The notes beneath the pieces were generated by a model that saw only the letters and a list, made by a program, of their open reading frames with translations, ran no database searches and was not told the origin of the DNA. Shown here one piece after another: positions 670 through 37,696 of a DNA stretch of 39,783 bases (positions are counted from its first letter, which is position 1; each line of letters starts with the position of its first letter). Source of the DNA: Trichocoleus desertorum ATA4-8-CV12 (lineage in GTDB: Bacteria > Cyanobacteriota > Cyanobacteriia > FACHB-46); contig JAHHIL010000052.1 in assembly GCA_019358975.1 (NCBI GenBank), positions 1-39,783 on the forward strand. Direction: 5' to 3'. The translations under genes were made by a program, and so were the position numbers.

Positions 670-686
670 GCTTGCCTCCTTTCCTG

Positions 687-1172: not shown

Positions 1173-1276
1173 TTTGGATTTCCTACTAGATTGCTTAACG
1201 TGACATCCCTGGTTATAGCCATCTCATGGCATCAAAATGCTTGCCCTTAATGTAGTTGTAATGCGATCGCCCCGCT

Positions 1277-1501
1277 TCAATTTTGTTGCAGATTTTCAAC
1301 TTCAGTTGCTAGCTCTTCGAGGGTGCAATTTAATACTCTGCACAACACCAACATTTCTGTAGGTGTCAACTTTGGTGCTCTAGCACCCGTCTCCCAGTTG
1401 CTAACAGTCTGATCTGTTTTGCCTAAAGCTTGTGCTACCTGCCTTTGGGTCAAGCCTGCACGCTCCCGTAATCTCATAATTCGATTCCCGTCTGAACTCA
1501 T
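1277..1501 (-). CDS. XRE-family HTH repressor, 74 aa
   Basis: Small DNA-binding protein made of one Cro/C1-type helix-turn-helix: LRERAGLTQRQVAQALGKTD followed by VSNWETGARAPKLTPTEM, the classical XRE pattern. The frame is open upstream to 1600, but the ATG at 1499-1501 leaves a normal HTH N-terminus and puts the two palindromes 1508-1527 and 1548-1563 in the promoter, so I use it. It is divergent from the small-protein operon starting at 1648 and probably represses both itself and that operon. It is clearly paralogous to the HTH protein at 4146-4400, which brackets the other end of the cluster. Confidence 0.85.
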   Translation of the reverse strand: MSSDGNRIMRLRERAGLTQRQVAQALGKTDQTVSNWETGARAPKLTPTEMLVLCRVLNCTLEELATEVENLQQN

Positions 1502-1507
1502 TGCACC

Positions 1508-1527
1508 ATAACTATAACAATAGTTAT
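1508..1527. promoter_or_regulatory. Palindromic operator candidate of the XRE gene
   Basis: Perfect inverted repeat ATAACTAT-AACA-ATAGTTAT, 6 bases upstream of the repressor ATG. It overlaps a TATAAC -10-like box on the minus strand. Position and symmetry fit an autoregulatory XRE operator. Confidence 0.6.
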
Positions 1528-1537
1528 ACAAATATAG

Positions 1538-1567
1538 TTGACCTTTATACAACGATTGTTGTAATCT
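1538..1567 (+). promoter_or_regulatory. Promoter with embedded palindrome for the 1648 operon
   Basis: TTGACC (1538-1543) is followed after 18 bases by TAATCT (1562-1567), a plausible sigma-70-type promoter pointing at the small-protein operon. The spacer and -10 contain a second perfect inverted repeat, TACAAC-GATT-GTTGTA (1548-1563), a likely regulator site. Confidence 0.5.
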
Positions 1568-1647
1568 AGAAGCATAGAGAAAGCGCCCCGGTCTGGACAA
1601 CTGAAAGCGCTCCTCTATAAACCAATTCGCAAAGGTCTAACAGAATT

Positions 1648-1947
1648 ATGCCTCAAACTCTTGTTGTAGAAAACACTTCAGCGATCGCTCCTTCCACTAC
1701 TCCCTCTCAATCCGGTGAAGACGAGCGTGGCAGTGGTCGCATTTACTGCACACATCCCAACGCCATCAAGTATCCAGAGCACACCTACCGTGCGATCGCT
1801 CAAATCACTCACAAATCAGGCAAGCAAGCCACTGCTGATGTGGTGGTGCTCAATCCTTGTCTAGCTGCGATCGATAAGTGCCTTGATGTGGTGCTCGGTA
1901 CTGGCTGGCATACCACTCAGTATCAATGGTGCGATGCACCGTTCTAG
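1648..1947 (+). CDS. Hypothetical protein, 99 aa
   Basis: First gene of the + strand small-protein cluster. The N-terminal 30 residues are Ser/Thr-rich and probably disordered. The rest looks like a small alpha/beta domain with two cysteines (IYCTHPN and VLNPCLAAIDKC) and a C-terminal GWHTTQYQWCDAPF. No family recognised. It lies downstream of the promoter at 1538-1567, divergent from the XRE repressor. Confidence 0.65.
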   Translation: MPQTLVVENTSAIAPSTTPSQSGEDERGSGRIYCTHPNAIKYPEHTYRAIAQITHKSGKQATADVVVLNPCLAAIDKCLDVVLGTGWHTTQYQWCDAPF

Positions 1948-1979
1948 TTGAGAGGTAGGGCGATCGCAAGGTCGCCCCT

Positions 1980-2192
1980 ATGACATCCAAGTACCCGCAA
2001 CCGCAGTTCCGGTTATTCCACCGAGTCATCCACACCGGAAGTAGCGACGCGGGCACCATGCAAAGCGCTGGAACGATTTACGGCATTGTTCACAACCCAG
2101 AACACCATCAACCTGGCTTCTGGTATTACATCCACTTCGATGACGGCATTAACGACACAGATCTCGAAGCGAACCTTACAGCACTGGATTAA
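1980..2192 (+). CDS. Small SH3-like protein, 70 aa
   Basis: Short beta-rich protein with the pattern F-R-hydrophobic-x-R-V, then GTIYGIV, then FWYYIHFDD, then an acidic D-L ending. The same order occurs in the 86-aa protein at 3827-4087 (FRFWQRVRI, GVIVGMDY, WWYSIELDE), so the two are diverged paralogues at opposite ends of the cluster. The layout resembles small SH3-like barrels common in cyanobacterial plasmids; that fold assignment is inference. Confidence 0.65.
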   Translation: MTSKYPQPQFRLFHRVIHTGSSDAGTMQSAGTIYGIVHNPEHHQPGFWYYIHFDDGINDTDLEANLTALD

Positions 2193-2203
2193 AGGATTTG
2201 GTC

Positions 2204-2470
2204 ATGAATTTGAATTTAAGCGATCGCGTTAATCAACGAATCAGCGACAACGTAGAAACCTTGCAATGGCTAGGACAAGTTTTAGCCGAGATAGACGAGC
2301 TAGAAAAAATTGAGATCACTATTACAAGCAATGAAATCAAGGTGGTGTGCGCCGATGTGTTTCTTTGCGACCAGCTTCTAAGAATGGCAGTGGACGCAGG
2401 CTATCAAAGACTTGTCTCCGTGTGGGCTGGCTGTCACCACTACGGCAAGAACCATTTCAATCGGGGTTAG
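2204..2470 (+). CDS. Hypothetical protein of the repeated small-domain family, 88 aa
   Basis: The ATG at 2204 has an AAAGGA ribosome site 7 bases upstream; an in-frame TTG at 2198 is less likely. The C-terminal half carries a pattern shared with neighbours: two strands (IEITITSNEIKVV), a helix with D-x-L (CDQLLRMAVDAGY), then a strand ending in a G and H/Y (LVSVWAGCHHYG). I read this as one copy of a domain that recurs in the genes at 2805, 3089 (twice) and 3614. Function unknown. Confidence 0.7.
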   Translation: MNLNLSDRVNQRISDNVETLQWLGQVLAEIDELEKIEITITSNEIKVVCADVFLCDQLLRMAVDAGYQRLVSVWAGCHHYGKNHFNRG

Positions 2471-2472
2471 TC

Positions 2473-2805
2473 ATGCAAAATATTCAATTCCCCTATCACG
2501 GCTGGGTCGTCAAAGTGACTCCCGAATCAGACGGTTGGACTGCACACATCCAGCATCCGCGCCAATTTGAGGACAACGAGTTTATTCCTTTAGCTCATCA
2601 ATTCGATTGCGCCTCTGATGCCGTACAAGCCTGTATGTATTGGGCAGAAACAGCTACCGCACAATTGGCGATCCGCGAGTTTCTTAACGATGAAGAAGCT
2701 GGCGATCGCCTGAGTGCAGATGAAAGTTGCCGTCTATTCCTATCCATTGGGAGAGAGGCATGGCGCAAGAGAGTTCCTAGTAGGGCAGCAAAGGAGGCGC
2801 AGTGA
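2473..2805 (+). CDS. Hypothetical protein, 110 aa
   Basis: The ATG at 2473 follows the previous stop by 2 bases. The frame is open further upstream, but that extension only overlaps the previous gene. The protein starts with a beta-hairpin pattern (YHGWVVKVTPESDGWTAHIQ) and ends in a helical Arg-rich tail. The layout recalls small HicB-like or DUF-type modules, but I cannot assign it. Its last bases overlap the next start (GTGATG). Confidence 0.65.
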   Translation: MQNIQFPYHGWVVKVTPESDGWTAHIQHPRQFEDNEFIPLAHQFDCASDAVQACMYWAETATAQLAIREFLNDEEAGDRLSADESCRLFLSIGREAWRKRVPSRAAKEAQ

Positions 2806-3092
2806 TGCACGAAATCTTCACCCCAGAGGACAAGCGCTTCTACGAATGGATTTCACTAATCAGAGAGCCGCAAGGTGTGAGAGTTCAGATTCTCAACGAG
2901 CTGATTGAAGTTCACGTTGGCGACAAGTACCAAGCCGGAGAGCTATGGCGTGCTCTACCCATTCTCAAGCTAGGCCAAGGTTCACTGAAGCATGTGGATC
3001 TCTGGATAGGCAAAAGACTGTATCTCTACACCCGTCACCGATTGACGCTAGACGACATTGCTATAAAGCCACCAAAGAGGAAGAAGCCATGA
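2805..3092 (+). CDS. Hypothetical protein of the repeated small-domain family, 95 aa
   Basis: AAAGGAGG at 2790-2797 places the start at the ATG 2805 rather than the GTG at 2802. The sequence carries the cluster domain: FYEWISLIREPQGVRVQIL, then helix AGELWRALPIL, then VDLWIGKRLYLY. It aligns by eye with the second half of the next protein (IKEPQKIKIEV, ERIWREYC, LEIWSGDHQY) and with the 67-aa protein at 3614. Its stop overlaps the following start (ATGA). Confidence 0.7.
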   Translation: MHEIFTPEDKRFYEWISLIREPQGVRVQILNELIEVHVGDKYQAGELWRALPILKLGQGSLKHVDLWIGKRLYLYTRHRLTLDDIAIKPPKRKKP

Positions 3093-3610
3093 ATCTCACA
3101 GAAATCATAAAGCAGAAGCTCGTGCTAAAAAATTTCAAATGTTTCCTTTCCATAGACCTCAGCTTAAATAGGCTCGAAATTTCATGCAACTCACTGGAGG
3201 ATTGCGATCGCCTCATTGAAGACCCTTTTCTCGACAATATGGTCAAGGGAGCCAACGAAGTAGGTTTTGAGGAAATAGACATTAATTGCGGTAGGGAGTT
3301 GATTCAATCCCTCCCCATACGAATGCTGCTGGATTACGACAAATCAATGCCCTTGTTTGATCACTTCTTTTTCAAGATGGTGGGTTCAATCAAGGAGCCG
3401 CAGAAAATCAAAATTGAGGTCAGGGAAGGGATTGTAATTGTGCGGTTGTGGTCTGACGAGGAAGATGTGGCAGAGCGAATTTGGCGAGAATATTGCGGTG
3501 CTTTTTGGCTCACTGGCTACTACCTAGAGATCTGGTCGGGGGATCACCAATATGCCACTTCAAAGCTCCTTTTTAAGGTCAAAAAAACCCAATCCACAGA
3601 GGGGGCATGA
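3089..3610 (+). CDS. Two-domain member of the small-domain family, 173 aa
   Basis: The start at ATG 3089 overlaps the preceding stop by four bases, a translational-coupling arrangement. The protein looks like a tandem duplication. The first unit ends with LEISCNSLEDCDRL and GFEEIDINCGRE. The second runs from FFFKMVGSIKEPQKIKIEV through ERIWREYC to YYLEIWSGDHQY. Each unit has the strand-strand-helix-strand-G order found in the genes either side. No catalytic motif is visible. Confidence 0.72.
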   Translation: MNLTEIIKQKLVLKNFKCFLSIDLSLNRLEISCNSLEDCDRLIEDPFLDNMVKGANEVGFEEIDINCGRELIQSLPIRMLLDYDKSMPLFDHFFFKMVGSIKEPQKIKIEVREGIVIVRLWSDEEDVAERIWREYCGAFWLTGYYLEIWSGDHQYATSKLLFKVKKTQSTEGA

Positions 3611-3613
3611 AGT

Positions 3614-3817
3614 ATGGATAGCAGGTTTTTGAAATGGCTTACCCTCGTAAGGCCAACTTCTGATGTTGTCCCAGCACCCGATCGCTACATCGTCTACACA
3701 GATTGCGTTGACGAAGCTGATGACCTCTGGCGATCGCGCTATCTACTTGGCAAGCCGTTAGAGATCATCATCGGTCGTCGCTATACCCCTAGCGTTGAAC
3801 TCCAGAAAACTTGGTAA
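3614..3817 (+). CDS. Short member of the small-domain family, 67 aa
   Basis: It begins 3 bases after the previous stop. The pattern FLKWLTLVRP, then YIVYTDCVDEADDLWRSRYLLG, then LEIIIGRRYTPS matches the domain in 2805-3092 and the C-terminal half of 3089-3610 without the extra N-terminal part. Function unknown; clearly part of the same operon. Confidence 0.65.
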   Translation: MDSRFLKWLTLVRPTSDVVPAPDRYIVYTDCVDEADDLWRSRYLLGKPLEIIIGRRYTPSVELQKTW

Positions 3818-3826
3818 AGGTGCAAC

Positions 3827-4087
3827 ATGCGAACCAAAATTAAAGCCATTTGTATTCGCCTACCACCTGCCATTCATAAACCTAAATTCCGTTTCTGGCA
3901 ACGAGTGAGAATTGATGACCAGTGGGATGACTACGGGGTGATCGTCGGCATGGATTACGTCACTGAGTTAGGTTTCAGCAAAGCCGATTGTGGCTGGTGG
4001 TACTCAATCGAGCTAGACGAGAGTATTCCTCATAAGCGATTGGAGCCTATCAGGAGTGCTGCGGAAGCAGACCTAAAAGCTTTATAG
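3827..4087 (+). CDS. Small SH3-like protein, 86 aa
   Basis: Last gene of the operon, 9 bases after the preceding stop. It shares the order FRFWQRVRI / GVIVGMDY / CGWWYSIELDE / acidic D-L ending with the 70-aa protein at 1980-2192. A terminator follows immediately, so this ends the transcript. Possible roles are nucleic-acid binding or a protein adaptor, but nothing in the sequence decides. Confidence 0.68.
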   Translation: MRTKIKAICIRLPPAIHKPKFRFWQRVRIDDQWDDYGVIVGMDYVTELGFSKADCGWWYSIELDESIPHKRLEPIRSAAEADLKAL

Positions 4088-4114
4088 TTCCATCGCTGAA
4101 TTCGTACCCTTGTG

Positions 4115-4140
4115 GCCCACTTCTCTGAGGTGGGCTTTTT
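4115..4140. terminator. Intrinsic terminator between convergent genes
   Basis: GCCCACTTC and GAGGTGGGC form a 9-bp stem (with one G-T pair) around a TCT loop, followed by five T. It closes the + strand small-protein operon just before the convergent XRE gene. Confidence 0.85.
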
Positions 4141-4145
4141 GCTGG

Positions 4146-4400
4146 CTATGGGTTGCGATCGCCTGCTTTTCTCCCTGGTTTCTTACGCTTTTGTTCAATG
4201 CGTGACACATCAATAGCCTCAGAGAATTCCTCCAAAGTGCATTGATAAGCCGCTAACACCTGCATCATTTCTCTTGGTTCTAGCTTGGGAATAGATCGCC
4301 CTGCCTCCCAATTGCGGATAGTGCCGCTCGATTTGCCGCAGCTTTCGGCTATCTGCTCAGCTGTTAGTCCCGCCCTCTGCCTGAGTTCTTCGATATTCAT
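4146..4400 (-). CDS. XRE-family HTH repressor, 84 aa
   Basis: Helix-turn-helix of the Cro/C1 type: LRQRAGLTAEQIAESCGKSS then IRNWEAGRSIPKLEPREM, followed by a short alpha-helical part and a basic tail (EQKRKKPGRKAG). It is a paralogue of the repressor at 1277-1501, with the same spacing and a matching CTLEE motif. I start it at ATG 4400; an ATG five codons upstream (4415) is possible. The palindrome 4415-4433 and a TTGTTT-17-TATGAT promoter (minus strand, 4439-4467) lie in front of it, so autorepression and control of the divergent gene at 4515 are likely. Confidence 0.83.
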   Translation of the reverse strand: MNIEELRQRAGLTAEQIAESCGKSSGTIRNWEAGRSIPKLEPREMMQVLAAYQCTLEEFSEAIDVSRIEQKRKKPGRKAGDRNP

Positions 4401-4414
4401 TAAATCTTTAATCA

Positions 4415-4433
4415 TTAATTGATTGACAATTAA
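4415..4433. promoter_or_regulatory. Palindromic operator candidate of the second XRE gene
   Basis: Perfect inverted repeat TTAATTG-ATTGA-CAATTAA. It covers the -35 box of the divergent + promoter and lies downstream of the minus -10. This is the same arrangement as at the other XRE gene. Confidence 0.6.
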
Positions 4434-4451: not shown

Positions 4452-4467
4452 AGATACATGCAAACAA
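4439..4467 (-). promoter_or_regulatory. Promoter for the XRE gene
   Basis: On the minus strand TTGTTT (4462-4467) and TATGAT (4439-4444) are separated by 17 bases, a good sigma-70-type match. It overlaps the + strand promoter back to back. Confidence 0.5.
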
Positions 4468-4514
4468 ACCGCATCGCTTCAAGCGGTTTTCACCACACGC
4501 AGAGGTTTTTCACA

Positions 4515-5180
4515 ATGCAACTCTCCACCATCAAGTCTCAAGTTCTCGCTACCCTCGCAGCTTCCACTGCTTCCCAAGTTAAAGACTGGGCTGAGTGTCA
4601 CGGCTTGAATGTTGACCTCCGCACAACGGCTGGCTGGCAGCAAGTGTTAGAGGCGATCGCGGTTCAGTTAAAGCCCGCAGCAGACAAAGCGATCGCAACT
4701 GTCAAAGAAGCTGCTGTAGCGGTACATAATGCCGACTACGAACAACTCAAGCAAGACGCTTGCGACAAGGCGCTACAGCTCAAGGTTGCAGCTGTGGATG
4801 GAGCACTTGATGCCCACGCGATTCTCAAGCAGCATTGGGGGCCAGCACTTCGCCTGACTTGGGATGTATCTAGATTGATTGCACTTTGGACTGCGATCGC
4901 GGCTATTTATTGCCTCCGAGCAGGGCAACAGGTTCGGACCTGTGTGGATGAACTGGAGTACAGCGGAATGAGGCCGCATCAGATTGCATGGTTCTTTGCT
5001 AAGCCGCTGGTAAAGAGGGTGCGTAAGCTGGGCTACGTGATGCGCGATCGCCTTCAAGTTTGGGTGCTAAACAAACTGGCTGAAGTCAAGCGCCTAGCTC
5101 GGTTGCGGAAAGTTCGCGAAGCCGTAGCTTACGCAGCAGTTGGTTTTATAGGCGTTGCTGCTACTAGCCTGATCGGCTAA
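4515..5180 (+). CDS. Hypothetical amphipathic/membrane-associated protein, 221 aa
   Basis: Ala-rich, mostly helical protein. I choose ATG 4515 (AGAGG upstream) because the promoter ends at 4451. Residues about 60-105 form amphipathic helices with many Ala, Lys and Val. A hydrophobic stretch (LIALWTAIAAIYCLRAG) and a hydrophobic C-terminus (AYAAVGFIGVAATSLIG) could be membrane segments, separated by a basic helical part (RLARLRKVREAV). No family recognised. It is transcribed alone, with its own promoter and terminator, under the likely control of the divergent XRE repressor. Confidence 0.7.
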   Translation: MQLSTIKSQVLATLAASTASQVKDWAECHGLNVDLRTTAGWQQVLEAIAVQLKPAADKAIATVKEAAVAVHNADYEQLKQDACDKALQLKVAAVDGALDAHAILKQHWGPALRLTWDVSRLIALWTAIAAIYCLRAGQQVRTCVDELEYSGMRPHQIAWFFAKPLVKRVRKLGYVMRDRLQVWVLNKLAEVKRLARLRKVREAVAYAAVGFIGVAATSLIG

Positions 5181-5310: not shown

Positions 5311-5456
5311 TGCGTCAAAAGTGCGTCAAGGCTGTGTCAGAAGTGCGGCAAAATCAATAACAGAAGCCGATGAAAGCGGATTCATACCCCATTGGTCCTA
5401 AAGGTGCGTCAAGAGTGCGTCAGAAGTGCGGCAAAATCTACAGTGCGGCAGTTTTG
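5311..5456. repeat. TGCGTCA / TGCGGCA iteron-like array
   Basis: The heptamer TGCG(T/G)CA occurs at least seven times here in one orientation, often as GTGCGTCAAG or AAGTGCGGCAAAAT (5311, 5322, 5344, 5405, 5415, 5427, 5443). Looser copies continue to about 5760. Dense directly repeated short words in a gene-poor region are typical of plasmid iterons or partition sites. This region is one of two candidate origins on the plasmid. Confidence 0.55.
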
Positions 5457-6059
5457 CCATACGGCGATGGCGCGGATTAGCTCGGTTTGAAAGACTTGCG
5501 GCAAGTGTGCGACGGTCACGCGACAGGATGCCGTAACCACGCGACAAGGGACGCGACCGCAGGCGTTAGGTATGGCGCAAAGAGAAGCCTGTCGCTGTCG
5601 CGCTTCGGGAAGCGCCTGTCGCAAGGTGCGGCAAAAAGTGCGGTAATCGCTGGCGCAGAAGTGCGGCAGGAAGGTGTTAGGTATGGCACAAAAACGAACT
5701 GGCGCGATCACATTTTGGGGAGCCAGTGCGGAACAAGTTGCGGCAGCGAAACAACGGCGGCTGATTGTGGCAGGGGGTGCCAAAAGGTGACTCATGCGGC
5801 TGATTACTGCGATCGCAACCTGGGATATGTGACAGACTGTGCCAATAAGTGCTGATTGGTGGCAGTGGGTGCTGCGACGTGTGAGTACGTAATCAAGATG
5901 GCAGATTGTGTGCGTTGCCCTGCTGACGATCGAGCCAACCCACACGCAGCTAATTAGAACCTGACTATCCGGCAACTGAAGACTCTAGCTTTTCTACAGT
6001 CGCCACGCCTTGCTCTCGTGATCGGGAACAGTGAAGGGTAGAGTCACCCAGCGATCGTA
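5457..6059. other. Gene-poor GC-rich region, possible gene remnants
   Basis: No convincing long gene. The only long frames (5487-5855 + and 5409-5975 -) have abnormal composition (Cys, Arg and His excess) generated by the repeats. A 17-base word GTTAGGTATGGC(G/A)CAAA occurs twice (about 5565-5581 and 5676-5692), each time giving a start ATGGCRCAA, as if the beginning of a small gene had been duplicated. Several very short frames (5683-5790, 5794-5832, about 5902-5956) are present, and only the first looks protein-like. Confidence 0.5.
5683..5790 (+). CDS. Possible small protein, 35 aa
   Basis: Short frame starting ATGGCACAAAAACG with reasonable codon use and a balanced basic/Ala composition (MAQKRTGAITFWGASAEQ...). 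AGGAAGG lies 14-20 bases upstream, a poor spacing for a ribosome site. It sits upstream of the tape-measure gene inside a degraded, repeat-rich region, so it may be a remnant. Confidence 0.25.
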   Translation: MAQKRTGAITFWGASAEQVAAAKQRRLIVAGGAKR

Positions 6060-9000
6060 ATGGCAGAAGCTACCGCAGAGATTAGATTTAAGGCTTCAGA
6101 CAACGGCTTTAGTGACACCATTGAGCGTGGCGTTAAAGCCATGACGGGGCTGTTCAAGTCTTCTGATGCAGTGGCGGCTGGATTAGGGCGCGTCCAAAAG
6201 GTCGCAGGGGGCACAGCTTCTCAAGTTGCTTTAGGGTCTGAGCAGGCAGAAAAACTAGCAGCGAACCTTGGCAAGGTCGGTGTTCAAGGACTCAAGGTTG
6301 CTACAACATTCAGTAACTTTTTGGATATCAAAGGCTATTTTGATATTGCGGCCAAGGGAGTCGCCGGGATTGCTGCGTCACTCGATCGCCTCCCTCAGAC
6401 TACGGCGCTAGGTGAGGCGATCGGGGTTGATACCTCCTCTATTCAACAGTTTCAACAACTGGGTGAAGCGCTGAAATTTAACCAGCAGGAGCTGGATAGT
6501 TTTGCTATTAGTGCGGTTGCTCGCCTAACTCAGTTTGAAGAGAGTCTAACTCGTGTTGGGACCATCCTGCGATCGGACACTCGGATGGATGGGTTAGGCA
6601 ATAGTGCTCGTGCCAACACCGAGGAGCTACAGAAGAACGGCGGCGCGGTTCAAGACTTGGTAAATGGCCCACTCAAAAATGCTGTTACTTCCACCTCTGC
6701 TCTCGCGGGTCAGTATGAAGTTCTGTCAGGCGGGTTTACTGATGCCAACTCTTCTCGCCAAGTCCTAGAGGCGGGTCTAAAGCTTTCGGTTGTGGGTCAA
6801 GCCGAGTCAGGTTCTACCTTACGATTGCTGGTTAAAACTTTACAAGCTTACAAACTAGAAGCGGGCGATGCGGGCAGGGTCGCGTCGGTCCTGAACGGCA
6901 TCGTAGATCAAGGTATCACTACTGTTCCAGAGCTGACCAACAACTTTGGACAAACGGCGACGGTAGCCAAAGAAGCAGGGGTCAAGCTTGAGGAGTTGGG
7001 TGGTGCGGTCGCGGTTCTTACCACCAAGGGTACAACGACCGATACAGCCCTAACCGGGATTGAGTCACTGTCCCGAATTATCATCGATAAAACCCCACAG
7101 GCAGCAGCAGCGCTGGCTAACTTGCGCGACGAATCCGGCAAGCCCATCAAGTTTGACATTGCCGAGATTAAGGCCAAGGGTTTAGTTAAGGCATTGCAAG
7201 ACCTGAACAAAGCGACAGGTGGCAATGCTCAAGCGTTGGCCAACATCATCCCTGAGTCGCTGGCATACAGTACCGCCCTCGGTTTGATGGCAAATAATGC
7301 CAAAGATTTTGAAGCGGTTACGGTCAAGCTAGGCCAGAATACGTCCAAGTCATTAGAGGAAGTATTCGGTATCAGCCTCGGAAACCGAGCTAAAGACTTT
7401 GAGCGCATCGTTAATAAGTTTGGCGAACTGCTGATTAAGATTGGTCAAGGTGTTGCGCCATCGTTTCAGGGCGCGATCGATTTTCTGGACAATCTTGCAA
7501 CTGCTTTTAACTCCCTGCCAGAGCCCATCAAGGTTGGCATTGGTCAATTAGTCGCCGCCCAAATTGCTACTAGAGCATTCATGGGTGCGGGACAAGCTGC
7601 GATCGCAACTATCTTCGACCTCGGTAAAGCCTACCTCACCAACCGCGTGATTGCTCTGGCGTTCACGGGGCAACTGGGTCAAGAGCTGGAGGTAATGAAA
7701 GCGCTGATTCAGCAGCGCAAGGGATTGTTGGCAGTTGGCTTGCAGGCGTTTGGCTTCGACCAGCGATCGCGCCTCAGTGTCACCGAAACCACCGCAGCCC
7801 TACTCCAACAAACTGAGAAGACCACTGTACTGGGCAAAGCCAAAGAGCAGTTCAGCAAACTCTTCACCAAAGAGAACGCAGAGACGGCCAAGAATACTGC
7901 TGCCACTGTCGCCAATACCGCAGTAACGACAGCCAGTGCGATCGCTGAAAAGGCAATGAATTCTGAGTTAGGTAAAAAAGCTCAGAACCTGGCATCAAAC
8001 AATAGTCTCTTGCAAAAAGCCGCCGAAGCAGCCCAAGCGTTTAAGGATAAAGCAACACAAAAACTAGACGACTTTATTGGAGGTGGGGGCAAGTCTCCGG
8101 TAGATAAAGCCAAAGAGACCGCTTCACAAGTGGCAGAGCAGGGTAAGCAAATTGCCCAAGATGTTGCAGCCCAAGCTCAATCTGTGGCTCAAGATGCGGT
8201 AAAGCAGGGGCAACAGGCAGCGGAGCAAGTCACCCAAAAAGTTCAGGACACTGTAGGACGCGCCAAGCAAGTGGTTCGCGATCGCGCCTCAGATGGCATT
8301 ATCACCATCGACGTGGAAGCGGTTCCGGTTGTAGACGATCGCAAAGCCCTCCCTCAACCCAAGCAATCGCTCCCGGTTGAGATTGAACCTGTGGCTATGA
8401 AGCCGTTGGCACTGCCTCCTGCCAAGAACGCGCAGGATATGACCTCAGCTTTGGTGGTGCAGTCAACGGCGATCGAGGCTCAATCTCTCGCCACAACAAA
8501 GGCCACGACTTCTCAGCTAGCCAAGAACACAGTCACGGCACAGGGTGCGATCGCGGAAGGGGCAGAAACGGCAGCGATCGCGCAAAATACCACAGCCAAG
8601 ACAGTTAACCAAGTAGCCGAAAGCAACCTGATTAAAACTCGACTCTTTGGCAAAGAGGTCGCGTTTGCTTCAACCGGGATCTTTGGTGGACTCAATAAGC
8701 TGCTGTTGACTGAGATTCCCTTGCGGCAATTGCTGACGACTCAGATTGCGGCGAATACTACGGCATTGGCGGCTAACAACGCAGCTAGCAAAGGAGTGGC
8801 GATCGCCAAAGGTATTGCCACAGGTGCAATGGGTCTATTCTCTGGGGCAGCTAGTGGTGCTACTGCGGCAATGGGCGCTTTGTGGGTAGCAGCGGGTCCA
8901 GTGATTATTGCTGCTGGAGCGTTGGCCGCAGCAGGCGCGTTGCTGTTTGACCAGTTTTTTGGCGCTAGTGCTGAAGCTCGCAAGTATGCCAAGTCTTTAG

Positions 9001-12000
9001 ATGGAGTCTTGGCCCAAGATGACAAACTTCGAAAAAGCTTTAATCAAACTGTTGAAGTTCAGAAAGAAAACAGGAGTTTCTTTGGCGACTTAGGTAAGGC
9101 GATCGCCGGGGTTGGAAACAACATTGACTCGTTTGCGGAAAAAACGCCAGGACTAAATCTAATCAAGGGTTTTGGTGATTTTATTGTAGGAATCCCTGAG
9201 AACTATGACGCAATGAACAGGCAGATGCCTGCAATCGAAGCGTTTGGGAAGGTGACTGATAGAACCTATGACAAAATCATTGACACCACAAAAGCAAATC
9301 AATCTCTAAGTAAGGGATATTTGCTCACTGAAGAAACTAACGCTAAGTTGCGAGCAGGCATGTCTTTGACTGTTGATGACATGTCCAAAGAGCAACAGGT
9401 ATTTGAGCAGCGCAAAAAAGTTAATGATGAATACCTGTCAGGTTTAGAACAGGCCATTCAAAAAGAGAAAGACCCAGGCAGGCAGGCAGCGCTGCAAGCT
9501 CAAATTGAGAAGCTGAAAGACCAGACTAGTGCTTTAAAGGATAACTTCGAGGCTAATAAAAAGTACATTGAGCAGCAGGAAAAACTAAAACAAACGTTGA
9601 TCTTGAATGCTAACGTTGCCACTACGCCTGGGACGCAGGGAGGGAATCCAGTTCAAACCTCGCTCAATAAGCAGTTGCAAGCGGCGGAGGTTGCACTCAA
9701 GGATCACCAAAGTTCGGTAAACAAAAATCTTCAAGAGGATCAAGACAAGCTACGTGCCGATTCCTCTGCCTATCAAGAAGCTGTGTTGGCGGCATTTAGT
9801 CAAGACGCTATTACAGCGGAAGATGCGATCGCCAAATTAAAGCTGGCACTTGATGACACCGTTACCGTTGGCAATGTAACTGGCAGCTATTTAGATCCAG
9901 AACAGCGCATAGCTGGGTTAAAGCAAATCGCAGAACTACAGGCGAAAGCTACCGAGCGGGACAACGCTGCAATCAATGTTGAGATTGAGAAATCAAAAAC
10001 ACTAGGGCAAGCCAAGGTAAAAACCGCTGAGGAAACCGAAACCAAGGTTATTCAACTTGAGCTTCAAAGCGATCGCAACCGACTAGGTTTAATTGGAAAG
10101 CAGATTGCGACTTACCAAGAAGGCAATCTCAGACGAGTTGAATTAGAACAACAAGCGTCAATTCTACGCACCCAGATTCAGGCTAAAGAGTTCGCTCAAA
10201 GCGATCGCCTAACCGAGAACCAATTTAAAAAGCAGCAGGAGCAAGCGTCAATTAATACTGTTCGCTTACAAATCAGGCGGGCACAGGGACGCATCTCTGA
10301 GCAAGGTTTAGCTGATGAGACATTCAAAATCCAGCAGGATCTAAACCTTAAGCAACAGGAGATGTTGCAAAAACAAATTGACGCTCGTAAGGCTAAAAAC
10401 TTTGAGGCAAAGGATCTAGAGAAGGAATTAGCCAGAGTTCAGTTGGAACAACAAAAAGCTGCTGCTGAACAAGAACAGCGGTTATTTGAGCGCCGCATAG
10501 AACAACGTAAACAAGCAATCGCGAACTTGGCAGCAATGCAAATTCAACAGCTAGAGCGCCAAGCCTCTGGTATTGATACTAGGTCGAAGGAGATTCAGTT
10601 AACGCAGGAGCTAAAGGATAGTCGCAATGGTGTTGCCCAAGCTGAAGCCTCAGCCCAAGAATCTCAGATCCAGAATCAAATTAGGCTAACAAAAGACTCT
10701 GAGAAGAGAGCAGGCTTAGAAGTAGGGCTTGCTGAAACACGCCTTGCGAACTTGGCGCGATCGCAAGCTTTTGAGCAGGAGTCGCTGAAAACTCAAGCTC
10801 AAATCAAGCAACTAGAAATTGATAGGGAGATCATTCAGAACCGAATCGCTCAGGTCGAGAACCAAAGAAACATTGCTACGACTCAGCTAGAAATCATCAG
10901 GGCAAAGCGTGACGGTAAATCAGCAGAAGAGTTAGAGGCTCTTAACTTACAACTATCGGCACTGCAACAGCAGGGATCTTTGAATATCCAGCAGAGCCAG
11001 TTTTTGGAGAAGTCAAAACAACAACAATCCGAAATTGCTGTAAATGCCGAGAGGCGACTGGCAATTGAACAGCAAGTGGCAAGAGCTGGCGGCGAAGTTG
11101 ACATTAGACTAGCTCAGCAAGCGTTGGCCGAAGAACAACGAAATAAAGCCCTAGAACGTCGGCTGAAGCTTCTTGAGCGCCAGCAGCAACAGACTGAGAA
11201 CTACGCTCGTGAAGTGGAGCTACAAGGGCAAGTGGAGCAGGGTAGAGCCGATACTCTATCAAAGGCGGCTGAACGTCAAAATCAGTTACTAGAACAACGC
11301 AAAGCGATCGCCCAGTCAGTATCCAACCTAACTCAAGGTGAGTTGCAGATTGCGATCGACACTGAAACCAACGAGACACGCAGGGCGAAACTGTCAGAAA
11401 CAGTAGCAGCAATTCGCTTACAATCTGCACGCCAGCAACAAGAGCTAGAGCGCCAGTCTTTAGAATTGCAAATCCAACAGAATCAGGCTGCGTTGGAGAG
11501 AGAAAAGATTCAAAACCGCATCGGCAAGGCAAACAACTTAGCTCAACTCGCGTCAGCTCAAGCCGAGTTAGCTAGAGTACAGTCCGACAAAGCCGCTACG
11601 CCAGAGCAAGTTAGAGCCGCGCAGCTTGGCATCCAGGCTCGACTGGAAGAGGGTGCGGCGCTTGAGGTAGGTGCAGCGCAGTTAGACGTGCAAGGAAGGC
11701 TGAACACTCAGGACGCTGCATCACAGCGGCAACGCCTCGCTAACGAGCAAACACTGGCAGAGGATCAAGCAAGACTGGATCTAGCTCAAAATATTCGTAG
11801 GCCACGCGATCGCAAACGGGCACTCAGAAACCTTCGAGATGAATCACTCGCATCTGTGACGGGTGGCTTGACGGGCAGAAATGCAATTGGACAACTGGAG
11901 CAATTTAATCGCGCTATTGTTGCTCAAGAATTTGGAGTAGGGGCGGGTGCTACATCTTCGCTAAATCTACTGCCAGCGATCGCCCCTAACCAAGCCGCTG

Positions 12001-12332
12001 CAACCTCCGTGGATTTCGACACTATCAGGAAGAACTTCCTCGCTCGAATGCAAGAGTTCGTTGTTCCTACTCCAACTATTCAAGCGCCAAGCCTAAAAGC
12101 TCCAGGTGTAGGAGGGGCACCTGCGGGAGCAAGTAGTGGGGCAGCGGCGATCGCGACTGGGGAGCAATCGGTAACTATCCAAGTTGGTGGCATCTCGATT
12201 GTGAATCAGTTTACGGGTGCTGATGTGGATCAAGGCAAAGCTGCATCGCAAACAGAGCAGGGGGTTCGTAAAGCCCTCAGCGGCATCCTAGATAAAGCTG
12301 AGCAGTCAGGTAGGAGCAGAGGGCGATTCTAA
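6060..12332 (+). CDS. Tape-measure-like giant coiled-coil protein, 2090 aa
   Basis: Largest gene of the plasmid. Residues about 110-470 match the core of phage tail tape measure proteins of the TP901 type: repeated helical units with VPELTNNFGQTATVAKEAGVK, LEELGGAVAVLTTKGTTTDTAL and a following ALANLRDESG...KALQDLN...FGISLGNRA. Residues about 680-745 are Ala/Gln/Val heptad repeats. A long hydrophobic Gly/Ala segment lies at about 905-968, as in membrane-spanning parts of tape measure proteins. From about 1100 to 1910 there is nearly continuous Gln/Glu/Arg-rich coiled coil. In phages such proteins set tail length and line the tail tube. Here no other tail, capsid or packaging gene is near, so the role is open: an orphan structural rod, an envelope-spanning protein, or a relic. 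It overlaps the convergent gene by 4 bases at its 3' end. Confidence 0.8.
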   Translation: MAEATAEIRFKASDNGFSDTIERGVKAMTGLFKSSDAVAAGLGRVQKVAGGTASQVALGSEQAEKLAANLGKVGVQGLKVATTFSNFLDIKGYFDIAAKGVAGIAASLDRLPQTTALGEAIGVDTSSIQQFQQLGEALKFNQQELDSFAISAVARLTQFEESLTRVGTILRSDTRMDGLGNSARANTEELQKNGGAVQDLVNGPLKNAVTSTSALAGQYEVLSGGFTDANSSRQVLEAGLKLSVVGQAESGSTLRLLVKTLQAYKLEAGDAGRVASVLNGIVDQGITTVPELTNNFGQTATVAKEAGVKLEELGGAVAVLTTKGTTTDTALTGIESLSRIIIDKTPQAAAALANLRDESGKPIKFDIAEIKAKGLVKALQDLNKATGGNAQALANIIPESLAYSTALGLMANNAKDFEAVTVKLGQNTSKSLEEVFGISLGNRAKDFERIVNKFGELLIKIGQGVAPSFQGAIDFLDNLATAFNSLPEPIKVGIGQLVAAQIATRAFMGAGQAAIATIFDLGKAYLTNRVIALAFTGQLGQELEVMKALIQQRKGLLAVGLQAFGFDQRSRLSVTETTAALLQQTEKTTVLGKAKEQFSKLFTKENAETAKNTAATVANTAVTTASAIAEKAMNSELGKKAQNLASNNSLLQKAAEAAQAFKDKATQKLDDFIGGGGKSPVDKAKETASQVAEQGKQIAQDVAAQAQSVAQDAVKQGQQAAEQVTQKVQDTVGRAKQVVRDRASDGIITIDVEAVPVVDDRKALPQPKQSLPVEIEPVAMKPLALPPAKNAQDMTSALVVQSTAIEAQSLATTKATTSQLAKNTVTAQGAIAEGAETAAIAQNTTAKTVNQVAESNLIKTRLFGKEVAFASTGIFGGLNKLLLTEIPLRQLLTTQIAANTTALAANNAASKGVAIAKGIATGAMGLFSGAASGATAAMGALWVAAGPVIIAAGALAAAGALLFDQFFGASAEARKYAKSLDGVLAQDDKLRKSFNQTVEVQKENRSFFGDLGKAIAGVGNNIDSFAEKTPGLNLIKGFGDFIVGIPENYDAMNRQMPAIEAFGKVTDRTYDKIIDTTKANQSLSKGYLLTEETNAKLRAGMSLTVDDMSKEQQVFEQRKKVNDEYLSGLEQAIQKEKDPGRQAALQAQIEKLKDQTSALKDNFEANKKYIEQQEKLKQTLILNANVATTPGTQGGNPVQTSLNKQLQAAEVALKDHQSSVNKNLQEDQDKLRADSSAYQEAVLAAFSQDAITAEDAIAKLKLALDDTVTVGNVTGSYLDPEQRIAGLKQIAELQAKATERDNAAINVEIEKSKTLGQAKVKTAEETETKVIQLELQSDRNRLGLIGKQIATYQEGNLRRVELEQQASILRTQIQAKEFAQSDRLTENQFKKQQEQASINTVRLQIRRAQGRISEQGLADETFKIQQDLNLKQQEMLQKQIDARKAKNFEAKDLEKELARVQLEQQKAAAEQEQRLFERRIEQRKQAIANLAAMQIQQLERQASGIDTRSKEIQLTQELKDSRNGVAQAEASAQESQIQNQIRLTKDSEKRAGLEVGLAETRLANLARSQAFEQESLKTQAQIKQLEIDREIIQNRIAQVENQRNIATTQLEIIRAKRDGKSAEELEALNLQLSALQQQGSLNIQQSQFLEKSKQQQSEIAVNAERRLAIEQQVARAGGEVDIRLAQQALAEEQRNKALERRLKLLERQQQQTENYAREVELQGQVEQGRADTLSKAAERQNQLLEQRKAIAQSVSNLTQGELQIAIDTETNETRRAKLSETVAAIRLQSARQQQELERQSLELQIQQNQAALEREKIQNRIGKANNLAQLASAQAELARVQSDKAATPEQVRAAQLGIQARLEEGAALEVGAAQLDVQGRLNTQDAASQRQRLANEQTLAEDQARLDLAQNIRRPRDRKRALRNLRDESLASVTGGLTGRNAIGQLEQFNRAIVAQEFGVGAGATSSLNLLPAIAPNQAAATSVDFDTIRKNFLARMQEFVVPTPTIQAPSLKAPGVGGAPAGASSGAAAIATGEQSVTIQVGGISIVNQFTGADVDQGKAASQTEQGVRKALSGILDKAEQSGRSRGRF

Positions 12333-13396
12333 TCCTCCGGTATTTCAATAGAGCCAGATGGACATGTTAGTTCGCCATCAGCTACTTGAGGCGGCGTGGG
12401 CGGCGTTTTAGAGGGTTGCTCACTTTCACACAAAATTCGCTTACCTATTCCCTCACCACTGGGAGCGAACAATGCCCCTGCATAACTTCTTAATGCATTG
12501 TTCTTGCTCGATCCAGTAACCACGACCTTGGTAGGATCTTCAATAGCAATATTAAAATCGTAATCTTCTGAATTAGGCTCAACGCCCAACCCTAGTTCAC
12601 TTACACTTGAAGCGAACTGAGTCTTGGTTAGCATTTGGGTCTGTTGCCCCAGCACCACCGCTCTAACAAAACTCTGTCCAGCTAATTGTTTTTGAGCCAA
12701 AAGCTCAGATTTTGCCCCTGCCAGAATTTCTCGCTCAGAGACGTAAATAGGCCTTTTAAGAATTACTTCATATAATCCAGTGGCACTACTCCCTTCGCCG
12801 CTTGTTGCCCGACGAGCAGATGCTACTTCCCATCCGGATCTACCTAGCAACTGCATTTGAGACGAGAAATCCGTATCATCAATACCTTCAACCCTGTATT
12901 CCCACTGAACAGCAGGAGGCTTTTTGGGCGCAAAAATATTAGCCGTAGTCGCCAGCAAAATCCCTAGTAAAAGAACTGAGTTCACCACAGGAAGCACATC
13001 TAGCGATCGCACTCTATCTAAAAGGCCAAAGCGAGAACTAGTAGGACTTTTAACGCTGCTGACGGCTTCTTGCAAACCAACTGCATTGGAGGGTGGTGCA
13101 TCACCTAGGCTTAGATTCTCTCTCCATTTAGGTGTATTACTGCCGATCGCCTGCCCCTTAATGATTACCCGCTTGATTGGTTCGGCCCCTAGCCCTGCCA
13201 TCCCTTTACGAATGTAATCAGTGACCATTTGGTGATCCGGTACTGACTGAGATTCTGCAACCAGCATCAAACAATCGCCAGAAACACTCGCCTTAATTTT
13301 GATACCCTTGGGCGATAGTGAACGGTTCATTAAGTCAGCGATCGCTTGTGGGTCGCCTTGCTTAGCTCGCTCTAGGGGGGTGGTTTGCTGAGTCAT
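12329..13396 (-). CDS. Membrane protein with DUF4177-like and pilin-like C-terminal regions, 355 aa
   Basis: Three parts can be seen. Residues 7-95 are a cyanobacterial N-terminal module (LERAKQGDPQAIADLMNRSL...). One membrane helix follows at about 136-158 (PVVNSVLLLGILLATTANIF). Next comes a DUF4177-like strand-helix-strand unit (WEYRVEG...LLGRSGWEV...LYEVILKRP). The last 120 residues resemble the globular part of cyanobacterial type IV pilin-like proteins: a helix (SFVRAVVLGQQTQMLTKTQFA), SELGLG, DYDFNI, NALRSYAGALF, then ILCESEQPS and a closing Cys in CPSGS. The usual pilin leader peptide is absent because the membrane helix is internal. It is convergent with the tape-measure gene and shares its last bases. 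Confidence 0.72.
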   Translation of the reverse strand: MTQQTTPLERAKQGDPQAIADLMNRSLSPKGIKIKASVSGDCLMLVAESQSVPDHQMVTDYIRKGMAGLGAEPIKRVIIKGQAIGSNTPKWRENLSLGDAPPSNAVGLQEAVSSVKSPTSSRFGLLDRVRSLDVLPVVNSVLLLGILLATTANIFAPKKPPAVQWEYRVEGIDDTDFSSQMQLLGRSGWEVASARRATSGEGSSATGLYEVILKRPIYVSEREILAGAKSELLAQKQLAGQSFVRAVVLGQQTQMLTKTQFASSVSELGLGVEPNSEDYDFNIAIEDPTKVVVTGSSKNNALRSYAGALFAPSGEGIGKRILCESEQPSKTPPTPPQVADGELTCPSGSIEIPED

Positions 13397-13631
13397 TTTG
13401 GGTTTAGTGGAGGCTATCCAAACCTACCCATAGAGATACGCAATCGCACGTGTTTTTAGTTTTCTTTTCTAAAAGTTTACGTTTGGGTAGACAGGCGGAA
13501 GTCTTGATCTTTACAAGAAGTTCGCATGGAAGCGTCCATATTATTGGCTTAATAAAATCTGAGGTTGTTAAAGATATTTTTGCAAGCTTTCGTCCCATAC
13601 TCCATTGCCAAGGGATTAACTGGAGTTTGGT

Positions 13632-14165
13632 ATGGATCTAAAAGATTTAAAGAACCTAAATGAATTGCGCGAGAACGCTGAGGCTGTGGCAAAGACTGGG
13701 GCGGGGGCAGCAGCTGCCGTGAGTGCTGCTACTGGGCTGACAGTTGCAGCAACCTCAGGCGCTGGAATTACTTCAGGACTTGCGGCAGCAGGAGGCGTAG
13801 TCGGTGGTGGAATGGCTGCTGGTCCCGCTGTATTAGCGGCTGGCCCCGCAGCGATTGGGGCGCAAATCATCAATAACACGGTCTGGAGGGATGAGCCTGG
13901 ACTGTCTAGCGAAGAACAGGACGCGCGCGCAGCAGCACGACAAGCTACAGGAATGGGGGCAGCGGTCGGGGTTGCTGGAGTTGGGGCAGCAACTGTAGCA
14001 GGTGGTGCATCTGGTGCGGCAATTATGAGCACACTTGCAACTGTTGGCGGTGTAGTCGGTGGTGGGGCGATCGCGGGTACGGCTATAGCCGCACTGGCTC
14101 CTATTGCAGTAGCTGGGGCAATTGGATACGGCGCATACAAGTTTTTCGGCGGCAAAGACAGATAG
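13632..14165 (+). CDS. Gly/Ala-rich hydrophobic protein (glycine-zipper type), 177 aa
   Basis: After a charged N-terminus (MDLKDLKNLNELRENAE) the protein consists of Gly/Ala-rich hydrophobic stretches with repeated GGVVGGG and AGVGAATVAGG motifs, in two blocks around a charged middle (WRDEPGLSSEEQDARAAARQ). It ends with GYGAYKFFGGKDR. This is the composition of glycine-zipper membrane proteins, which oligomerise in membranes. Many phage holin-like and surface proteins look alike, but no specific family can be named. The opposite strand has an equally long Ala/Pro-rich frame, a mirror artefact of this composition. The ribosome site is weak (TGGAG 7 bases upstream). Confidence 0.68.
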   Translation: MDLKDLKNLNELRENAEAVAKTGAGAAAAVSAATGLTVAATSGAGITSGLAAAGGVVGGGMAAGPAVLAAGPAAIGAQIINNTVWRDEPGLSSEEQDARAAARQATGMGAAVGVAGVGAATVAGGASGAAIMSTLATVGGVVGGGAIAGTAIAALAPIAVAGAIGYGAYKFFGGKDR

Positions 14166-14185
14166 TAGTTTTACAGTTTTTATTG

Positions 14186-14224
14186 AACGCTACGCTCGCT
14201 TGAAAGCTGTAGGCGTAGCGTTTT
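14186..14224. terminator. Hairpin/terminator after the Gly-rich gene
   Basis: A perfect 10-bp stem, AACGCTACGC (14186-14195) with GCGTAGCGTT (14213-14222), ends in TTTT. It lies 21 bases after the stop of the 13632 gene. The word CGCTACGC is also common in dispersed cyanobacterial repeats, so it may be a repeat used as a terminator. Confidence 0.6.
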
Positions 14225-14401
14225 GCTGGCTTTGATAAGTACGCTCACTACCCCTGACATCTGCCCTATCCTCTGGACTGTGAAAGTAAATCCTACTCAC
14301 TGCGATCGCCCCCGCCTAGAGTTCACCATCTCTTCACGACCTAGGTGATGATTTTCCTCTCGACAGCGGGGATTTTAAACAAGGCATCTTTCGGAAAATT
14401 C

Positions 14402-15142
14402 ATGCTCAAATCCCTACGCAGAACCGTTGCTCTCTCCGTGGCATTCATTCCTCTCGCCGTCAGCCTCCCCGGAGTTGCGATCGCTGAAGAAAGGAAGGTT
14501 TACACCTCCGCAGAAGGGTACGACGTTTATATTGACTCAGCCACCATCATTTTCAATGGCAGCATTCGAGAATTTGTGCAGAAGAATGTGCCTTGGGAAG
14601 GCAGTATGGTCACTATTTTGGAGCAATCAGTTAACTGCTCAACTGATGAAATCGCCACCAAGAACACTAGGAGAGAAAACCTGGCGGGTACAGTTACGAG
14701 CTCATCGGGTCGCGTCGGGCAATTTCGACGACCGAAGGCTGGTACTGAAGAATTTTTGGTGGAAGTGATTTGCGGATTAGAGCAGCCTTCAACGGGTGCT
14801 AGTGACTCTAAATCAGGTGTGAGAGCAAGAGTGAGCGATCGGACTTCTGGTTTTAATTCCACTCTCGGTGCTGGTTACTCACCCGTTGCCAATCGCTTCG
14901 ATCCTCCCATCTGCTTCATGCAGAACCAAACGGGGCAGATGTTTGACCTCACAGGTCTTTGCGGTTCAGTAGGTAGCCCTGTTACAGCAAGCTTTAGCTC
15001 TGGTGGATTTGGCGGTAACTCAGTCGGTAATAGTTCTAGTGGCGGCGCTGGCAGTGGGCCTTGTGATACGCCTGATGACGTTGACTCCGCAGGTCGCCGT
15101 TGTGGTGCTAGGGCCGCTAGCGAGAGAGCAGGGGGACGTTAG
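14402..15142 (+). CDS. Secreted Cys-containing protein with C-terminal DSAGRRCG motif, 246 aa
   Basis: The ATG at 14402 gives a textbook signal peptide: MLKSLRRT, hydrophobic VALSVAFIPLAVSLPG, cleavage after VAIA. The frame is open 19 codons further up, but that would bury the signal. The mature part has paired cysteines (CSTDE, VICGLEQ, PICFMQN, GLCGSV), a Gly/Ser-rich linker and the ending PCDTPDDVDSAGRRCGARAASERAGGR in which C, D, RRCG and R residues follow a pattern I know from the C-termini of other cyanobacterial exported proteins. It probably acts in the periplasm or outside the cell. It overlaps the start of the next gene by one base. Confidence 0.75.
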   Translation: MLKSLRRTVALSVAFIPLAVSLPGVAIAEERKVYTSAEGYDVYIDSATIIFNGSIREFVQKNVPWEGSMVTILEQSVNCSTDEIATKNTRRENLAGTVTSSSGRVGQFRRPKAGTEEFLVEVICGLEQPSTGASDSKSGVRARVSDRTSGFNSTLGAGYSPVANRFDPPICFMQNQTGQMFDLTGLCGSVGSPVTASFSSGGFGGNSVGNSSSGGAGSGPCDTPDDVDSAGRRCGARAASERAGGR

Positions 15143-15324
15143 TGTTACCAATTGCAATGTGGCAGATTGCTTGTATTGCGGTGCTGGCGATCGCTTTTTT
15201 CATTGCTAAGGCATCCAAAAATCTAGCTCTTTGGGTGACAGCGTTCTTGCTTCTAGGTGCTTATGTTTTCTATTGGGCACATAAGTTGCTGCAAATATTT
15301 ATGTCTATCGCTAATCCAAGCTAA
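15142..15324 (+). CDS. Small two-helix membrane protein, 60 aa
   Basis: GTG start at 15142 with GGGGGA five bases upstream; an ATG five codons in (15157) is the alternative. Almost the whole protein is hydrophobic and forms two membrane segments (residues about 3-22 and 27-48). It is coupled to the secreted protein by overlap of its GTG with the upstream TAG. Unknown function; the operon context suggests a surface or export role. Confidence 0.6.
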   Translation: MLPIAMWQIACIAVLAIAFFIAKASKNLALWVTAFLLLGAYVFYWAHKLLQIFMSIANPS

Positions 15325-15343
15325 AGCCTTTAGGGTGCTCACT

Positions 15344-15526
15344 ATGACTAAAGCAATGAAACGAACCTTGATCGCATTCGTGCTACTACTGCCGATCGCA
15401 ACGCTGCCAACTTGGGGGAAGTGGATTTGGCCGCAGTGGTTTCCAGAGCAAGTTTGTATTCTGCCAGCTCCCGACGGCACGGTCAGCAAAGCCCAAGGCG
15501 CTGCTTGCACAGGCACAAGTCTTTAA
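15344..15526 (+). CDS. Small exported or membrane-anchored Cys protein, 60 aa
   Basis: It starts MTKAMKRTLIAFVLLLPIA: basic N-terminus, hydrophobic core and a plausible cleavage or anchor, followed by a short Trp-rich part (WGKWIWPQWFP) with two cysteines (QVCILPAP, AACTGTS). I take the ATG at 15344; the frame upstream overlaps the previous gene. It is third and last in the 14402 operon and is followed by a terminator. Confidence 0.55.
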   Translation: MTKAMKRTLIAFVLLLPIATLPTWGKWIWPQWFPEQVCILPAPDGTVSKAQGAACTGTSL

Positions 15527-15655: not shown

Positions 15656-16138
15656 TTAATTAGCCAGTGCTAGAGGCGTTCCTTGAATTCGCTTCTCAAA
15701 ATCTAGGACTTGATGCTTTTCAGCCTCTCTTCTCAGGTCTGAAATAACTTCCCCGATTTTTCCAATTTCATGAATGACAATTTGCCCTTTGTTCTTGCCT
15801 GACGCTTTTAGAACCATCGTTCCAAAGCTTTCCCAATCCTCAATCAGATATAGCTCGGCATCAACAAATATCAGATTGCAGTTGAAGAGCGATTGCTCGT
15901 AGTTGCGAGACTTAAGAAAAGCAATCACTGTCCGAATTTCTTGAAGGGAAAGCTTTTCCCTTAATCTGCTGATGACCTTCAGCTCAATAATTTGGCCTAC
16001 TGAGTAAACCACCCGAGGCCGCTTTGAAGCGCCAATTCTTTGTGGCTTAACTAGTCCTGTTTCGTCTAGGTAGCTCAATCGTCCTGAAGTTATGCCAGTT
16101 ATTGAAAGAGCCTCCTGCCTGGTAAATCCGCTAATCAT
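15656..16138 (-). CDS. MerR-like HTH regulator, 160 aa
   Basis: The N-terminal part reads like a MerR-type winged helix-turn-helix: FTRQEALSITGITSGRLSYLDETGLVKPQRIG, then RVVYSVGQIIELKVISRLREK and LSLQEIRTVIAFLKS. The C-terminal 80 residues do not show a metal-binding Cys set; they look like an alpha/beta sensor or dimer part (LIFVDAELYLIEDWESFGTMV). It is divergent from the 42-aa gene at 16358. A perfect palindrome CTAATATTAG (16267-16276) in the shared upstream region is a candidate binding site. Confidence 0.75.
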   Translation of the reverse strand: MISGFTRQEALSITGITSGRLSYLDETGLVKPQRIGASKRPRVVYSVGQIIELKVISRLREKLSLQEIRTVIAFLKSRNYEQSLFNCNLIFVDAELYLIEDWESFGTMVLKASGKNKGQIVIHEIGKIGEVISDLRREAEKHQVLDFEKRIQGTPLALAN

Positions 16139-34800: not shown

Positions 34801-34808
34801 GGGGAGAA

Positions 34809-35075: not shown

Positions 35076-35158
35076 AGCGAAAGCCAGCCTGAACTTTCCA
35101 CGGCAAAGGCTGGCTCCATCCGCTGTCCACATACCCGAACAAACGGACTAATTTCATC

Positions 35159-35482: not shown

Positions 35483-35484
35483 CG

Positions 35485-35814: not shown

Positions 35815-35816
35815 TC

Positions 35817-36449: not shown

Positions 36450-36503
36450 TTGTGCAATGGCTGGTGGTGCGCGATCGCCAGCCTCAGTCAAGCCTTAGAA
36501 ACT

Positions 36504-37678: not shown

Positions 37679-37696
37679 GTCGGAAAAGTTGTTTGG

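Follow-up and report, generated by a model that had tools for sequence, protein, structure and literature searches.

Why should a cyanobacterial plasmid carry the gene for a phage tail tape measure, and whose tail could the protein serve? The gene lies on contig JAHHIL010000052.1 (C52) of the draft genome of Trichocoleus desertorum ATA4-8-CV12 (6.06 Mb, 90 contigs), and the window analysed here is this whole contig of 39,783 bp. Because its ends share a 127-bp repeat and it encodes a CyRepA1-family plasmid replication protein (23899–27657, minus strand; NCBIfam 240 bits, cut-off 200), ParA and a ParM-like partition protein, with no tRNA gene found on it, the window is a circular CyRepA1 plasmid of about 39,656 bp. 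Further genes code for a helicase, an integrase and an AbiEii-like protein. The backbone operon (33781–39531, plus strand) comprises the ParM-like actin, small ORFs, a multi-pass membrane protein (36908–37678) and a P-loop ATPase (37732–39531); it also occurs on many Nostocales plasmids, in a diverged form on the phage-plasmid G120:C42, and for the most part, at 80–87% identity, on a sister plasmid of the same genus (G001:C39), which has no tape-measure gene. A profile search of the backbone ATPase against the PDB returned weak matches to the P-loop region of unrelated ATPases only, and its use as a query in viral contigs returned nothing.

In the non-coding gap just upstream of the tape-measure gene, eight iteron-like GTGYGKCA repeats lie on the same strand within 350 bp (5321–5668, plus strand). 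This cluster may be a replication origin or partition site, and the cumulative GC-skew minimum falls close to it, at 2–5 kb; we know of nothing that assigns it to the tape-measure gene. Further upstream, two related short helix-turn-helix repressor-like genes (1277–1600 and 4146–4415) flank a run of small ORFs, and the protein encoded at 4458–5180 had no match in plasmid records.

The gene for the tape-measure protein (TMP) is one ATG-started open frame (6060–12332, plus strand) encoding 2090 residues. Residues 209–393 match PF10145 (PhageMin_Tail) above the cut-off (2.9e-21), and the protein matches five PHROG tape-measure families, the best at 2.7e-21. It consists of an N-terminal segment (1–200), the TP901/PF10145 core (about 209–486), a hydrophobic segment (945–963), a long helical region rich in Q, E, K and R (about 1150–1950) and a conserved C-terminal end (SVTIQVGGISI...). 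Frame, PF10145 and PHROG matches and plasmid genes thus bear out the earlier note, made from the letters of the window alone, in its claim of an intact TP901-type TMP of 2090 residues on a plasmid. PF10145 had no second match elsewhere in the host genome, a search of PDB sequences with the TMP found nothing, and an AlphaFold model of residues 1–560 (mean pLDDT 41) was too poor for a structure search. No promoter-like site was found just upstream of the gene, although cyanobacterial promoters may not fit the consensus used.

Relatives of the protein were found in phages. An IMG/VR search that used an alignment of residues 1–520 recovered eleven contigs carrying a TMP 41–43% identical to that of the plasmid over residues 1–560. 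Homology to these kin phage TMPs covers residues 1–655 (41%) and 1309–2077 (27%), and the C-termini are alike by eye, so that the phage-TMP homology extends beyond the core to both ends and the plasmid TMP is a new member of a known protein family. The closest kin sit in cyanophage-like structural clusters, as in contig G291 (84.7 kb), where a TMP of 2265 residues lies downstream of the major head protein in a co-directional cluster; more distant kin occur in phages, prophages and satellite-like islands. A pattern-based, non-exhaustive search of 84,980 bacterial and archaeal genomes with the kin alignment found none this close, nor was a second plasmid with a closely related TMP found. The TMP alone as query in genome contigs and viral contigs found nothing.

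A tree of 36 TMP cores, computed before the kin IMG/VR contigs were known, groups the plasmid TMP with those of the siphophages Pam2 and PA-SR01 at 94/89, short of full support; an insertion, RDESGKP/KDEAGKP, is shared by the plasmid TMP, Pam2, PA-SR01 and the kin contigs. Leave-one-out conservation was uninformative: with 8 of the 11 conserved core residues retained, the plasmid TMP lies near the median. The cyanosiphophage TMPs of Pam2, PA-SR01 and IMGVR_UViG_3300042546_000893 have the same PF10145 core, N-terminal segment and long helical region, a similar C-terminal end and a similar length (1918–2641 residues). Their genes, however, stand among capsid and tail genes, whereas that of the plasmid stands alone and has host-like GC and HIP1 content.

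The earlier note had reported no other phage tail, baseplate, capsid or packaging gene on the plasmid. A PHROG scan of the other predicted proteins matched only regulator, integrase, helicase, replication and partition families, apart from a weak scaffold match (0.003) of a coiled-coil protein at 31286–31672. This negative is weak, since most structural genes of the nearest phage likewise escape PHROGs: among ten proteins around the TMP on the contig with the closest TMP, only the major head protein was recognised as a virion protein. We therefore searched the TMP-masked plasmid with a set of 1360 proteins taken from phages, prophages, a phage-plasmid and satellite-like islands. This returned a replication protein, regulators and other non-virion matches only, in agreement with the earlier claim: by both searches no head, further tail, terminase, portal or packaging gene was recognised on the plasmid. 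Nor was a tail chaperone, for which it should be considered that PHROGs misses diverged tail genes and that small ORFs at 115–4415 and elsewhere have no assignment. The plasmid half of a phage-plasmid (CyRepA1, ParA, ParM-like protein, circular form) is present, and from the terminase, portal, capsid and tail set only the TMP was recognised; from the gene content of satellites the TMP is present, and neither a terminase nor a capsid-modifying gene was recognised. Taken together, the plasmid gene is a full-length siphophage-type TMP and the sole recognisable virion gene on an ordinary CyRepA1 plasmid. In the host genome no match to the portal (PF04860) or HK97 capsid (PF05065) profiles was obtained, so that neither profile points to a resident helper; of the two weak matches to a terminase profile, one was the helicase of the plasmid itself. 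We infer that the plasmid TMP can do its known job only with the tail proteins of another phage.

A prophage decayed in place, which the earlier note had considered, was rejected, since the 1360 queries revealed no degraded virion-gene remnants around the masked TMP. The same note had argued that an intact frame of 6.2 kb speaks against decay, and the calculation agrees: of substitutions placed at random in the gene, about 4% would introduce a stop codon, so that at 2% neutral divergence about five stops are expected and the probability of none is 0.006. Long neutral residence of the gene is therefore unlikely. Recent capture is possible; the nearest TMP relatives are only about 42% identical.

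The composition of the gene bears on its route. Its GC content is 50.0%, as compared with 49.3% in the host and 41–42% in the kin phages, and it holds 16 HIP1 palindromes (2.55 per kb), as compared with 1.83 per kb in the host and 0.1–0.5 per kb in the kin phages; in the stretches of Pam2 and PA-SR01 that we examined there is no HIP1 at all. These palindromes, it has been argued, arise in situ and accumulate with residence, so that long-resident genes should be richer in them (PMC3025956). Host-like composition together with an open frame thus suggests either a host-adapted temperate element as the route or long residence. Because HIP1 reaches host-like levels in prophages and in the phage-plasmid too, this composition may predate the capture, having been gained inside a temperate donor, and the TMP appears to have been captured from a temperate cyanophage or a phage-plasmid. 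The phage-plasmid G120:C42, which shares the backbone, was rejected as the donor, its TMP falling in another branch of the tree. That an assembly artefact joined phage and plasmid DNA is extremely improbable: the draft has 90 contigs and the 127-bp end overlap is typical of k-mer assembly, but the contig closes on itself and the GC and HIP1 content of the TMP gene matches the rest of the plasmid.

We then considered the neighbouring genes, which are as the earlier note had described them. A membrane protein with one transmembrane helix and a C-terminal Pilin_GH domain (1.9e-20) is encoded at 12329–13396 on the minus strand, convergent with the TMP gene and overlapping it by 4 bp; it is followed, all on the plus strand, by a glycine/alanine-rich putative membrane protein of 177 residues (13632–14165), a signal-peptide-like protein with a hydrophobic N-terminus (14345–15142, the start more likely at about 14402), a small membrane protein of 60 residues (15142–15324) and a small exported-like protein, also of 60 residues, read from the translation at an internal ATG (15344–15526) of ORF 15257–15526. 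Of 145 cyanobacterial genomes, 119 have relatives of the Pilin_GH protein, most of which match its N-terminal part, and these are unlinked to TMPs. The signal-peptide-like protein shares mainly its C-terminal motif, CD..DSAGRRCG, with proteins of 23 other genomes (among 291), and this motif is common to many cyanobacterial chromosomal proteins; the glycine/alanine-rich protein had no match in plasmid records. Beyond them, a MerR-type regulator (15656–16138, minus strand) is common on Leptolyngbya and Pseudanabaena plasmids at up to 60% identity. Apart from the TMP, a MerR regulator is the sole resemblance to plasmid genes across contig G291; its being a second gene from the donor phage of the TMP was dropped as a possibility, the G291 copy being only 32% identical and thus more distant than the copies on ordinary plasmids.

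These results bear directly on the proposal that a length-determining coiled coil has been reused, with its neighbours, as an envelope-spanning or secretion element. The membrane and exported neighbours and the one hydrophobic segment of the TMP would fit such an element, but the Pilin_GH, signal-peptide and MerR families occur widely in cyanobacterial genomes or on plasmids that have no TMP, and no relative of a neighbour protein was found beside a TMP among the TMP relatives examined. Moreover, inspection reveals no signal peptide in the TMP, whose hydrophobic segment has counterparts in phage TMPs. The recurrence that the earlier note had asked for is thus not seen, as the kin of the TMP stand in phage clusters and the neighbour families elsewhere, and a large gene without conserved neighbours is what that note had itself named as speaking against its proposal. 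We therefore rejected the envelope machine, which we regard as very improbable. As the sister plasmid also lacks the TMP, the gene is a single accessory, and it is probably a captured phage gene useful only with a visiting phage, not a new cell-surface machine.

How a single TMP could be useful is illustrated by phage satellites. The satellite PLE11 encodes its own TMP, which is built into chimeric tails and changes their length, and without it about 99.9% of transduction is lost; putative tmp genes occur in other satellites too (PMC12987554). PLE11 and other Vibrio cholerae PLEs are, like the plasmid, mobile elements with their own TMP and an incomplete set of virion genes. They differ in having a known helper, ICP1, a tail chaperone (and, in PLE11, a hub) and a TMP whose function has been tested. 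By analogy, the plasmid TMP may act in trans in the tails of a helper or infecting siphophage, a reading that we favour tentatively and hold at somewhat less than an even chance. The gene would be kept for what its product does in trans when a related siphophage infects the cell or is induced. By taking the place of the helper's TMP, this product could give rise to a chimeric tail whose length it sets itself and which helps in transducing the plasmid; alternatively, it could compete with that TMP, so that the tails of the helper are spoiled. At about 0.15 nm per residue, its 2090 residues would correspond to a tail of roughly 310 nm. The envelope neighbours would have no part in this.

Trans action is supported by the complete architecture of the TMP, both ends of which align to kin phages, by its grouping with Pam2 and PA-SR01 and the insertion shared with them, by its open frame and host-like composition, and by the PLE11 precedent together with two local TMP-bearing islands and the CyRepA1 phage-plasmid described below. 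Against it stand the lack of a recognised terminase, chaperone or baseplate-hub partner on the plasmid, of a second plasmid with a closely related TMP, of a resident helper detectable with PF04860 and PF05065 and of a promoter-like site just upstream, as well as a composition that may come from a temperate phage before capture. In a stronger form, the single plasmid TMP would be a trans-acting tail hijacker that swaps the ruler of the phage, yielding particles that carry the plasmid or are defective, with a tail length set by the plasmid. This we consider unlikely; if true, it would be, as far as we found, the first plasmid-borne, one-gene form of the PLE-type chimeric-tail strategy.

About as likely as trans action is that the gene is an inert passenger without function, being either a fairly recent capture from a temperate phage adapted to the host or the last survivor of a shrunken phage-plasmid. 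Consistent with this, the TMP is a singleton with no recognised partner genes and is absent from the sister plasmid, CyRepA1 phage-plasmids exist, and temperate elements can have host-level HIP1. Plasmids with isolated phage virion genes are, in addition, already described in cyanobacteria: on the phage-like plasmid P1 of Microcystis aeruginosa NIES-298, phage tail genes and capsid-like genes likewise stand isolated, without a complete phage, a state that has been interpreted as reduction or as horizontal acquisition, although its tail genes differ (tail tip, minor capsid) and the text mentions no tape measure (PMC12510456). A passenger, on the other hand, would have to account for the longest plasmid gene, the least likely to survive neutral decay, having stayed open, and for the absence of degraded remains of other virion genes around it. 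A limited literature search found no report of a TMP as the sole virion gene on a plasmid.

The plasmid TMP might instead be a defence decoy, blocking the tail assembly of infecting siphophages, to the benefit of the host cell and not of the plasmid's spread. The anti-phage proteins Tai (PMC11364771) and Rta, the latter acting on the TMP of ICP1 (PMC12987554), are known to target tail assembly, and the two ends with which a TMP is expected to bind tail parts are both retained in that of the plasmid. As far as these two papers show, however, Tai and Rta are not TMP homologues, and no recognised defence gene adjoins the TMP; we consider a decoy improbable.

Other elements combine plasmid or satellite features with a TMP. 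G120:C42 (L118, L092 and L119) is a circular myovirus-type phage-plasmid of 48.9 kb with a 45-bp end overlap. Like the plasmid, it holds a CyRepA1-type replication protein, a membrane/ATPase pair, diverged from that of the plasmid, and a TMP on one circular element; unlike it, it has a full terminase, portal, sheath, baseplate and head set, and its TMP is of 747 residues and of another tree branch. Such a phage-plasmid would offer a meeting ground for recombination, in line with capture of the TMP gene. Glacial 'satellite phage-plasmids' are likewise small circles that combine plasmid genes with phage genes, including in one case a phage tail gene and a terminase, but they are of about 15 kb, with a P4-like primase and an integrase and not of the CyRepA1 type (PMC4490671).

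Two relatives of the plasmid TMP lie in cyanobacterial islands that also carry a terminase, which was not recognised on the plasmid. The first (L027, G047:C1:415308-430442; 15.1 kb) lies in tRNA-Val, is bounded by a 27-bp att-like repeat and encodes integrase-like and AlpA-like proteins, a primase/helicase, TerS, TerL and a TMP of 1092 residues; no capsid or portal was recognised in it, and the only HK97-type capsid match of the genome is 500 kb away. The second (L029 with L072/L073, G145:C1:1628908-1646028; 17 kb), bounded by a 17-bp repeat, encodes an integrase-like protein, a TMP of 802 residues, TerL and a primase-sized gene, and the whole genome has no PF04860 or PF05065 match. Although the integrase, AlpA-like and G145 primase labels were assigned by eye from sequence or position and not by profile search, the gene content suggests that both islands resemble TMP-bearing phage satellites. 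To our knowledge, few phage satellites have been described in cyanobacteria, and whichever reading of the plasmid holds, these two capsid-less islands point to TMP-encoding satellites in these bacteria. Should the plasmid TMP indeed work in trans, replicating plasmids of cyanobacteria would join integrated Vibrio satellites as agents of tail piracy; as a passenger, the gene would be a record of genes passing between cyanophages and CyRepA1 plasmids.

Further observations concern related genes elsewhere. A relative of the plasmid's two repressor-like genes lies downstream of the TMP in the first island (L027:13278-13520). Leptolyngbya boryana pLBA (L008; 77.8 kb, listed as linear) carries a terminase gene and a TMP-like helical protein of 1322 residues; as a protelomerase is encoded on pLBY of that strain, pLBA is possibly a linear phage-plasmid. 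Very large TMP-core proteins, of 5106 and 3662 residues, are encoded in two cyanobacterial genomes, at G001:C33 (L023–L025), which also has portal and capsid matches on that contig, and at G172:C2 (L032), which has a portal match.
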